DNA from: Marinobacter guineae
Lineage (GTDB): Bacteria > Pseudomonadota > Gammaproteobacteria > Pseudomonadales > Oleiphilaceae
Assembly (NCBI RefSeq): GCF_002744735.1
Contig: NZ_KZ319341.1
Coordinates: forward strand, 421,848 to 485,847
Direction: 5' to 3'
Length of the DNA stretch: 64,000 nucleotides
The position numbers and the translations under genes were made by a program. Shown piece after piece: positions 4,204 to 22,068 of this stretch. The notes below the pieces were generated by a model. That model did no database searches and had not been told where the DNA came from. It saw only the letters and a program-made list of their open reading frames with translations. Position 1 is the stretch's first letter; each line of letters starts with the position of its first letter.

Positions 4204-4312
4204 GCGCGGGCGGGTCATCCCTTTGCCAGACCGTGGAGGGCCAGGGATGGCCCGACCGAGCCTACATGGATGTATTTACGGCGTGTCTGGCAAAGGGATG
4301 ACCCGCCCGCGC
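4204..4312 (-). repeat. long-stem conserved-loop hairpin, copy A
   Basis: A perfect 28 bp inverted repeat (left arm 4204-4231, right arm 4285-4312) encloses a 53-nt loop related to the loops of three other hairpins in this window. Read on the minus strand, the loop starts ACGCCGTAAA and contains two mini-hairpins, TACA-TCCA-TGTA and GCCA-TCCC-TGGC, the second extendable to GGGCCA/TGGCCC. The stem sequence is unlike the other copies. The element begins 34 nt after the stop of the GST-fold gene (minus strand), in terminator position, but there is no proper U-tract after it. This is the most diverged of the four copies. Confidence 0.9.
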
Positions 4313-8948: not shown

Positions 8949-9827
8949 ATGGATTTCTACGGCCGCAATCCGATTAATGTTTTCTCAAAGGTCGCCTTAT
9001 TGCTGGTACTGGCCGTTGCCCTGGCAGGCTGCAGCTCCACCAAGACAGCCTATCGTTACGCAGACTGGGGCATCGTCTGGTGGGTGGAAGATTATATAGC
9101 CCTCACTAACGCACAGAAGCAACAACTCAACGCCGACATCAACAACCTCAGGCAGTGGCATTGCAGGGCCGAGCTTCCCCGCTATCAGGCCTGGCTGAAT
9201 GAGCTTGAATCCGACGTCTCGGAGGGCCCAGTTGGCAAGGCAACTGTGGCTTACCATCAGGAACAGCTGTTTGGTTTCGTTCCCGGCCTTCTCCAACAGG
9301 TCACTCCAGTTGCCGTCAACCTGCTTTCCAGTCTGAGTGATAAGCAGGTGCATGAGCTTGCTGAAAACATGGAACAGAACCAGCAGAAGATGGAGGAAGA
9401 ATTCCTGGCCGCTTCCCCGAAAGCAACAGCCGAAGCTCGGGCTGACCGCACAGTGGAGCGGGTGGAACGCTGGCTGGGCAGGCTCAATAGTGAACAGCGG
9501 CAGATTGTTGAGACCTGGTCCGCCAATCGCGGGACGCAGACCGAAATCTGGCTTCAGGGCCGCAGAAACTGGCAGCTGGCGCTGCTGGAAGTGCTTGAGC
9601 GAAGGAATGAGCCAACATTCCCGGGGGAACTGGAGAACCTGATCATGAATTCCGAAAAGTTCCGGGGAAAAGCCTATGAAGCCATGATGGCCGAAAGCCG
9701 GCCGGCCATGGCTTCGCTGATGCACGATCTGATCAAGACAGGCGATGCTTCCACCCTGGCGCATCTGCAGAACCGGGCGTCGGAACTGAACAGCGACTTC
9801 GAAAGTCTGACCTGCTCACCGGCGTGA
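8949..9827 (+). CDS. DUF6279 family lipoprotein
   Basis: The 292-residue product has a lipoprotein signal (LAGCSS, Cys28) followed by a mainly alpha-helical, Gln/Glu-rich body. The opening of the mature part, YRYADWGIVWWVEDYIALT, is the hallmark I associate with DUF6279 lipoproteins of Pseudomonas and relatives, whose function is unknown. It starts at ATG 8949 after GGGTGAT and stands alone, divergent from the DUF2798 gene and convergent with an SDR gene. An envelope location, probably the inner leaflet of the outer membrane, follows from the lack of Asp right after the Cys (+2 is Ser). Confidence 0.8.
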   Translation: MDFYGRNPINVFSKVALLLVLAVALAGCSSTKTAYRYADWGIVWWVEDYIALTNAQKQQLNADINNLRQWHCRAELPRYQAWLNELESDVSEGPVGKATVAYHQEQLFGFVPGLLQQVTPVAVNLLSSLSDKQVHELAENMEQNQQKMEEEFLAASPKATAEARADRTVERVERWLGRLNSEQRQIVETWSANRGTQTEIWLQGRRNWQLALLEVLERRNEPTFPGELENLIMNSEKFRGKAYEAMMAESRPAMASLMHDLIKTGDASTLAHLQNRASELNSDFESLTCSPA

Positions 9828-9839
9828 ACCGTGCCATTT

Positions 9840-9867
9840 GGGTCAGATGAAAGCGTTCATCTGACCC
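9840..9867. terminator. nested hairpin between convergent genes
   Basis: GGGTCAGATGAA (9840-9851) pairs perfectly with TTCATCTGACCC (9856-9867) around AGCG. An outer imperfect pairing (GCGTGAACCG near 9822 with CGGTTTCACGC near 9869-9879) extends it into the DUF6279 stop region. It lies between two convergent genes and probably ends transcription in both directions, though there is no clear T-tract. Confidence 0.6.
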
Positions 9868-9892
9868 CGGTTTCACGCTACGCGGTTCACAT

Positions 9893-13351: not shown

Positions 13352-13464
13352 GAGCTGCTGCCGGGAGGGGCTTTCCAAAACACGCTGTGAATACGTCCAT
13401 GTACGCTCTGCTCCGCCATCCATGGCTCCGCAAGGTTTTGGAAAGCCCCTCCCGGCAGCAGCTC
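13352..13464 (+). repeat. long-stem conserved-loop hairpin, copy B
   Basis: A perfect 30 bp inverted repeat (13352-13381 and 13435-13464) encloses a 53-nt loop (13382-13434) nearly identical to that of copy D. The loop contains TACG-TCCA-TGTA and GCCA-TCCA-TGGC mini-hairpins. The outer stem (GAGCTGCTGCCGGGAGGGG...) differs from the other copies, while the loop-proximal TTCCAAAAC is shared with copy D. Unlike the other three copies it does not directly follow a gene stop. Confidence 0.92.
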
Positions 13465-13579
13465 CCCGATTTCTGAGTCAGCCGGAACCAGGTTCTTGCA
13501 AAGGTCTAACAACTTTTGTTTTTGAGAGTCCGCACCAATTGCACAAAAAGCACCCCGGAAATCCACTCACAAGTCAGAA

Positions 13580-13689
13580 GGAGCCGGCGGGAAGGGGGTT
13601 CTGAAACTGTGCGGAGCCATGGATGGCGAAGCCCAAGCGCCACATGGATGTGCTTGAGCGTGTTTCAGAACCCCCTTCCCGCCGGCTCC
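13580..13689 (-). repeat. long-stem conserved-loop hairpin, copy C
   Basis: A perfect 28 bp inverted repeat (13580-13607 and 13662-13689) encloses a 54-nt loop. Read on the minus strand the loop has CACA-TCCA-TGTG and GCCA-TCCA-TGGC mini-hairpins; the first differs from copies A, B and D by a paired T-A to C-G change. It begins 20 nt after the stop of the acyl-CoA dehydrogenase, the same spacing and relative orientation as copy D after its gene. Confidence 0.92.
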
Positions 13690-21871: not shown

Positions 21872-21984
21872 GGAGCGAGCGGCGGGGCAGCATTCCAAAA
21901 CACGCTGTGAATACGTCCCTGTACGCTCGGCTCCGCCATCCATGGCTCCGCACGGTTTTGGAATGCTGCCCCGCCGCTCACTCC
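21872..21984 (+). repeat. long-stem conserved-loop hairpin, copy D
   Basis: A 30 bp inverted repeat (21872-21901 and 21955-21984) with a single mismatch at 21876 encloses a 53-nt loop (21902-21954) that differs from the copy B loop at only a few positions. The stem differs in its outer part but shares TTCCAAAAC next to the loop with copy B. It starts 20 nt after the stop of the D-2-hydroxyacid dehydrogenase and is followed by a separate classical terminator at 22020, so it is not the only terminator here. Confidence 0.92.
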
Positions 21985-22019
21985 TCAATGCTAAATTTTT
22001 TAACTTCATCAGTACAAAA

Positions 22020-22043
22020 AACGGGAGCCCGAAGGCTCCCGTT
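22020..22043. terminator. bidirectional rho-independent terminator
   Basis: AACGGGAGCC (22020-22029) pairs with GGCTCCCGTT (22034-22043) around the stable CGAA loop. A T-rich run follows on the plus strand and an A-run precedes it, giving a U-tract on the minus strand too. It serves the convergent dehydrogenase and response-regulator genes. Confidence 0.9.
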
Positions 22044-22068
22044 TTCTATTCATAAGCAAAGCTGAGCA

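Follow-up and report, generated by a model that had tools for sequence, protein, structure and literature searches.

The four long hairpins in this stretch of the Marinobacter guineae genome are, judged by sequence and layout, copies of a high-copy lineage of the Rfam family RF01731 (TwoAYGGAY) taken in a broad sense, and they might act as dispersed CsrA-binding RNA modules, a reading to which we give an even chance. Four inverted repeats of 28–30 bp around loops of 53–54 nt, three with perfectly complementary arms and one with a single mismatch, had been described in the original prediction within the 64,000 nucleotides analyzed here (the window), and their coordinates, lengths and pairing held. 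In a scan of the window for inverted repeats with spacers ≤ 100 nt, the best score was 30 and four places reached at least 20; the top score among 50 dinucleotide-preserving shuffles was 14, with nothing at 20 or above, so complementarity is well in excess of shuffled sequence. Element A (4204..4312; 5′ arm 4204..4231, 3′ arm 4285..4312) has its GGA strand, i.e., the strand on which the loops read GGA, on the plus strand, with a 28-bp stem (100% paired) and a 53-nt core carrying the hexaloops AGGGAT and ATGGAT (model match G000:C3:426066-426144, plus strand, G000 being the own genome of 4.46 Mb), and is flanked by an aldo/keto reductase gene and a glutathione-S-transferase-like gene. Element B (13352..13464, GGA strand minus; 30-bp stem, 100% paired), whose 53-nt core (13382..13434, minus) holds two ANGGAN hexaloops, and element C (13580..13689, GGA strand plus; 28-bp stem, 100% paired, 54-nt core) form a close pair (13352..13689) with GGA strands pointing outward, in a gap with an acyl-CoA dehydrogenase gene on one side and a short-chain dehydrogenase gene on the other. 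Element D (21872..21984, GGA strand minus; 30-bp stem with one mismatch, 97% paired; 53-nt core) is flanked by a 2-hydroxyacid dehydrogenase gene and a LuxR-type response regulator gene; naming this regulator GacA was unsupported, the top model being ErdR, itself below its cut-off. The loops align with each other, as had been predicted, once all are set on one strand (A and C plus, B and D minus).

A covariance model was built from ten copies, all set on the GGA strand (CCATGGATGG...TACATGGATGTA), and its matches within the 64-kb window were A, B, C, and D and none else. In the own genome it found at least 123 places at E ≤ 1, at least 121 of them at E < 0.01; 150 candidates were scored, so both are minimum counts. 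This bears out the earlier guess of many genomic copies. From the 123 matches 119 were extracted (four were left out), and a further ten with a stem < 15 bp were left out of the stem counts, resulting in 109 copies. In a sample of 38 genomes, copies were present in all 25 Marinobacter genomes (own included; 3 to at least 124 each) as well as in 3 of the 13 genomes from other families of the same order (26, 34, and 6 copies), and searching the exact core pattern in the genome collection returned Marinobacter alone among the 80 loci listed. No match to 89 bases of B was found in plasmids and phages (blastn, E 0.001).

The original prediction had known of no described family with such a layout, and in this respect it failed: in RF01731, too, an outer stem of weak consensus encloses two GGA hairpins, and it does match the elements, though this is seen by genome-wide search only. 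Comparing the window with Rfam at Rfam's own cut-offs reported nothing; with E-value thresholds, RF01731 reached 27.5 bits at B and 28.1 bits at C within the window search and 33.2 (C), 27.5 (B), and 24.7 bits (D, with A not listed) genome-wide, against a cut-off of 43. Genome-wide, 51 of its 52 matches at E ≤ 10 were elements on the GGA strand (23/23 at E ≤ 0.01 and 46/46 at E ≤ 1) and a single one exceeded the cut-off, at 43.9 bits, while in 14 control genomes there was a match in one and none over the cut-off. From these statistical matches and the common layout (two GGA hairpins on the same strand, closed by a long outer stem with weak sequence conservation) we take the elements to belong to the described family. 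The Marinobacter copies differ from it in that nearly all score below the cut-off, loop position 2 can be any base and not Y alone (Y in 62/104 copies for hairpin 1 and 58/104 for hairpin 2), the stem is almost mismatch-free, and copies range from 3 to at least 124 per genome. Tandem G·A pairs in one stem are named as a TwoAYGGAY feature in the passages on this motif in PMC4333381; a GGA/GGA internal loop, which may or may not correspond to them, was seen in hairpin 1 of 8/10 aligned copies. Among 274 genomes of the class, RF01731 was present at E ≤ 1e−4 in 16 (own included), five of which had at least nine matches. Close (−)(+) pairs, a trait common to RF01731 and the elements, were seen in the Gammaproteobacteria G342 (two) and G231 (one), with starts 225–277 nt apart. 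At 29 RF01731 loci of other genomes, a script measured outer stems of 26–40 bp in five and 6–15 bp in four and left 20 unparsed; the long outer stems of L243, L244, and L246 were judged by eye. Matches to microRNA families were taken as chance hits of long hairpins, far below their cut-offs, though the bit scores of some exceed that of RF01731.

Outer stems ≥ 15 bp occur in 109/119 extracted copies, and 90 copies have one of 26–30 bp. Its pairing is nearly complete: 2920 of 2977 stem positions are Watson-Crick, 37 are G·T and 20 are others (including three A·C), with 64/109 stems perfect. The sequence, on the other hand, is nearly free. For 83 copies in three loop-length classes, stem positions 10–22 are 0.41–0.47 identical versus 0.43–0.51 expected from column composition, whereas the loops are 0.79–0.94 identical; the arms have a positional composition, the 5′ arm being G-rich. 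The claim of locus-specific stems thus stands for positions 10–22 and needs refining for the innermost ~10 bp next to the loop, an inner stem partly common to copies (consensus TTCCAAAAC). Weak flank motifs (CACC, CTCC, or CCCC and then an A-rich stretch right after the stem; AGGC ~12–24 nt after the stem) were also seen. Elements A–D fold with high stability (z −9 to −11).

The few imperfections of these stems are informative about the strand that folds. Selection on one folded strand would tolerate G·T (G·U) and not A·C on that strand, selection on the opposite strand predicts the reverse, and a cause acting on double-stranded DNA predicts equality. On the GGA strand, G·T outnumbers A·C by 37:3 in the 109 stems of the own genome (an alternative own set of 148 elements holds re-detections), by 31:1 among the 68 elements taken from named Marinobacter loci, and by 34:1 among 79 from further relatives, the latter two groups sharing loci by descent and some genomes, so that their ratios are not independent. 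The binomial p is ≤ 2e−8 for each of the three sets, with related copies being non-independent. That imperfections are G·T and rarely A·C argues that the folded GGA strand is under selection. By gene context the ratios are 8:0 (codirectional, sense), 11:0 (codirectional, antisense), 9:0 (divergent), and 9:3 (convergent), and among the one-sided changes at locus B 9:4, these last two ratios being less lopsided. Taken alone, the asymmetry would fit folded single-stranded DNA as well as RNA, of which we infer RNA. A stem without function, in which fold-back template switching during replication copies arm onto arm and so keeps palindromes perfect, would be in line with the 64 perfect stems and with the 84 both-sided versus 16 one-sided changes relative to G000 at locus B; being strand-symmetric, however, it predicts equal G·T and A·C, and it does not account for the conservation of the core. 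Given the asymmetry, such copying cannot be the only cause, and we regard this explanation as highly improbable.

How pairing is kept could be followed at orthologous loci. For the B/C gap, 61 Marinobacter genomes matched and the best 30 loci were compared; at locus B, 11 of 13 distinct sequences were used, G055 and G014 (shifted by one base pair) being left out. In these 11 orthologs, all with one core type, mean identity is 68% in the arms and 93% in the core, and both sides have changed in 17 of the 30 outer-stem pairs. When all 42 pairs of the structure are counted, pairing is kept in 96.8% of cells versus 84.0% in shuffles, and the covariation score is 0.425 versus 0.167, a level that no shuffle out of 500 attained. 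Further pair types were no more numerous than in shuffles (81/500 had at least as many), and 7/11 sequences leave pair 7-107 unpaired. The stems thus diverge in situ and remain paired. Of the original prediction, a dispersed family with a conserved inside and locus-specific complementary stems is borne out.

The inside and the outside of an element do not always travel together. Another core type lies between B-type arms in G054, G019, and G001, another core type occupies C in G059, G045, G048, and G066, and at locus 326 the sister genomes G009 and G023 have common outer arm ends and unlike core types. Cores thus appear, on sequence comparison, to have been swapped between loci, which core exchange would explain: a contiguous central segment (core plus inner stem) moved as one piece keeps both arms complementary, and would give the same inside with a different outside. 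Copies are also gained and lost over time. When 12 G009 elements were looked up in G023, seven were absent, two had the same core, one had another core between similar arms, one site had an unlike element and one a core-less hairpin. At 323 and 324 at least, among the seven empty sites, G023 seems to have lost a copy, as G000 has the element there. D is absent from the orthologous gap of both G009 and G023, with neither arm visible. At the site of G009 locus 329, the hairpin of G023 (L352) is long and has no GGA core.

Such turnover is what a mobile DNA repeat of the REP/BIME or MITE kind would produce, in which the GGA strand would fold as single-stranded DNA during transposition and the core would be the structure recognized by the enzyme, with no cellular function needed. 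REP/BIME and REPIN-RAYT repeats are intergenic, present in many copies, palindromic, and often met as inverted pairs, and REP units have 20–40 nt; the elements share the first four traits and, at ~110 nt, differ in the last. Their placement is in line with mobility: no copy lies wholly within a called gene (0/119) and five overlap a called gene end, one of them by 83 nt; one and the same gap can contain unlike elements, one of them with opposite orientation (G022, D locus); and close pairs have their GGA strands outward in 19/19 cases in the own genome and in 13/13 on the closed chromosome of G066, although some pairs are shared by descent (at least the B/C pair is inherited in common). These pairs are not duplicated hairpins, stems within 15 pairs being 0.53 identical versus 0.49 overall. 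Like MITEs, the elements are short and non-coding, with inverted repeats and presence/absence variation, but the inverted repeats are locus-specific, with outer arms unrelated between copies beyond composition, which sets them apart from MITEs with conserved terminal repeats; the plasmid and phage search was empty as stated, and no target-site duplication was clear by eye at the seven empty G023 sites, where flanks have diverged. A REP/RAYT family was rejected, as the own genome has no Y1/RAYT gene (PF01797); G008, G009, G022, and G024 (77 to at least 124 copies) likewise gave no match, and G004, with 22 PF01797 matches, has seven elements. The elements also differ from REP repeats in being conserved inside and not at the ends. 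A mobile repeat further sits badly with copies whose pairing at an orthologous locus has been kept despite their age, with a G·T/A·C asymmetry also seen in relatives, and with absences that look like losses. Replication gave no clear bias either, with 57–58 versus 49–50 elements on leading versus lagging strands in G066 by three choices of turning points (2/20 GC-skew segments having the other sign inside an arm or being near zero). Overall, mobile DNA seems to us an unlikely account. Along the G066 chromosome, element density is high at 0.9–1.5 Mb and 2.2–2.8 Mb, with sparse zones at 3.7–4.4 Mb and 0–0.6 Mb, round the terminus presumed from GC skew.

Gene context was taken from heuristic gene calls, with 108 copies having a stem ≥ 20 bp. 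The 74 single copies lie between convergent (25), codirectional (33), or divergent genes (16), and no preference for the transcribed strand was seen, codirectional singles being 17 GGA-sense and 16 antisense; this absence of orientation relative to genes also suits a mobile repeat. In 49/74 the gene boundary closest to the copy is a stop codon (24 sense, 25 antisense), and the copies between convergent genes have a median distance of 21 nt to each gene. Hairpins at mRNA 3′ ends, protecting or terminating transcripts from either side with an incidental core, would predict such positions, and the very stable stems of A–D fit as well. An intrinsic terminator was nevertheless rejected, as TTTTT occurs within the first 15 nt after the stem in 0/108 copies. 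Between D and its convergent gene there is moreover a separate, ordinary G+C hairpin with an A-run on one side and a T-run on the other (22016..22045), also present in G009 and G023, both without D, which is likely the real terminator there. Since the 3′-end explanation also leaves the invariant ANGGAN loops and the strand-specific G·T tolerance unexplained, we consider it quite improbable. A sigma-70 scan put 30/108 5′ flanks above threshold. Composition shuffles gave 29–38, the opposite strand gave 32 at the 3′ flank and 23 at the 5′ flank, and fewer passed in regions further upstream (15) and in the 3′ flank read along the same strand (14). An own sigma-70 promoter was thus rejected, there being no GGA-specific signal versus shuffles, yet not a clean zero. 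With no orientation preference and no clear promoter, there is no sign of GGA-strand transcription in copies antisense to both neighbors, and these still show the G·T:A·C asymmetry (11:0).

The conserved core hints at a function. In 104 of the 109 stem-bearing copies it contains two A-N-G-G-A-N hexaloops (five copies fall outside the pattern); all 104 keep the A, G, G, and A of both loops, with the variable N being T in 62, G in 30, and A in 12 for hairpin 1 and T in 52, G in 43, C in 6, and A in 3 for hairpin 2, and with the two hairpins starting 23–25 nt apart. Both hairpins are supported by covariation in 166 cores from the own and related genomes (e.g., one pair is U-A in 101 and C-G in 55, another C-G in 84 and U-A in 78), and two of the listed core pairs are weaker, with 137/166 and 153/166 paired. 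According to the sections on RsmE and CsrA in PMC7652899, RsmE contacts A and GGA of ANGGAN hexaloops while N varies, and a CsrA dimer bridges two sites 10–63 nt apart with an optimum above 18; for the flaA leader, the relevant part of PMC4894983 gives two hexaloops with a spacing of 21 nt. By sequence and covariation, the copies present such a pair of sites, with ANGGA in a hairpin hexaloop and both sites within 10–63 nt. RF01731 shares the Rfam clan CL00106 with CsrB, and CsrB/RsmZ-type sRNAs (RF00018), as far as their descriptions go, likewise carry GGA in hairpin loops; csrB of E. coli occupies a single locus (369 nt), whereas the elements are many dispersed two-site units with a long closing stem and no clear promoter of their own. 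CsrA binding was proposed for TwoAYGGAY in 2014, with validation then in progress (motif passages of PMC4333381). One csrA is present in the own genome, and csrA was found in 21/21 element-bearing genomes tested (1–3 matches each), which is weak support, being counted in element-bearing genomes alone. Given loops like those contacted by RsmE, the common clan, the 2014 proposal and the presence of csrA, binding of CsrA is probably the function of the core, and the most likely candidate. Against it stand the absence of a strand preference and of a GGA-specific promoter signal, the minimum-energy fold of B and C, in which both hairpins pair together and the GGA is hidden, and the isolated 55-nt core of B, which folds no better than shuffles (z 0.62).

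If the elements are CsrA-binding modules, the functional form would most likely be RNA of the GGA strand, in which the outer stem of 26–30 bp, nearly free in sequence and kept in pairing, would present the two short ANGGAN-loop hairpins, 23–25 nt apart, so that one CsrA/RsmA dimer could bind both loops of a copy. Each transcribed copy would then be a one-dimer CsrA site or decoy, and more than 100 copies might jointly buffer CsrA or label the transcripts in which they lie, while the central segment (core plus inner stem) would be exchanged between loci. The binding itself might serve as a decoy, in local control or for release by RNase III. We regard the decoy role as possible though doubtful. 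A bolder version, in which the dispersed hairpins (more than 100) form a self-spreading regulatory RNA and a CsrA sink, their cores exchanged as a unit between locus-own co-evolving stems and their number (3 to at least 124) setting the level of free CsrA, strikes us as unlikely; in it, RNase III may cut the long perfect stem and so free the core. The family match, the copy number, the strand-specific structural constraint, the change in both arms and the presence/absence variation are observed irrespective of any binding.

RF01731 was termed a "relatively unexplored motif" in 2025 (in the lines on it in PMC11661157). A literature search returned no paper on such Marinobacter repeats or on dispersed TwoAYGGAY, and no later test of the 2014 link to CsrA. 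As far as this search reaches, an RF01731 lineage in the form of an interspersed repeat with more than 100 copies is new here, and so are the strand-specific constraint on stems whose sequence is nearly free, the outward pairing and the apparent core exchange. Marinobacter genomes with 3 to more than 100 copies, together with the strand-specific constraint and the natural presence/absence pairs, make the CsrA idea directly testable and hint that structured RNAs may take on the behavior of interspersed repeats.

Several variants and other repeats were seen along the way. Five G000 copies lack the 3′ arm (C1:255584, C1:843531, C1:957039, C1:995562, and C5:91017; L098, L046, L061, L059, and L094); they share a different, conserved 3′ end that includes a small separate hairpin (TTATGAAGC..GCTTCATGCG), have GGG in place of GGA in the second loop, and may be fused to, or form, a second repeat family. 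An enlarged core with an extra ATGGAC/ATGGAT hairpin and a CAGGAGC stretch occurs at C1:837938 of G000 (L097) and at the D locus of G066 (L291), and three own-genome matches of 94–95 nt outside the extracted 119 (C2:466277, C1:206851, and C2:1009259) may be of this kind. In the D-locus gap of G007, G003, G024, G017, and G010 (L278–L282) there is another repeat, GTAGGTCGGATTAGCC..GGCGTAATCCGAC with variants, single or in inverted pairs, and AATCCGACCTAC-like stretches resembling it flank some own-genome elements. Finally, the hairpin GGGTCAGATGAA / TTCATCTGACCCC at 9823-9884 of the window, with variants near the D locus of relatives (L285, L286, and L289), is another interspersed hairpin.
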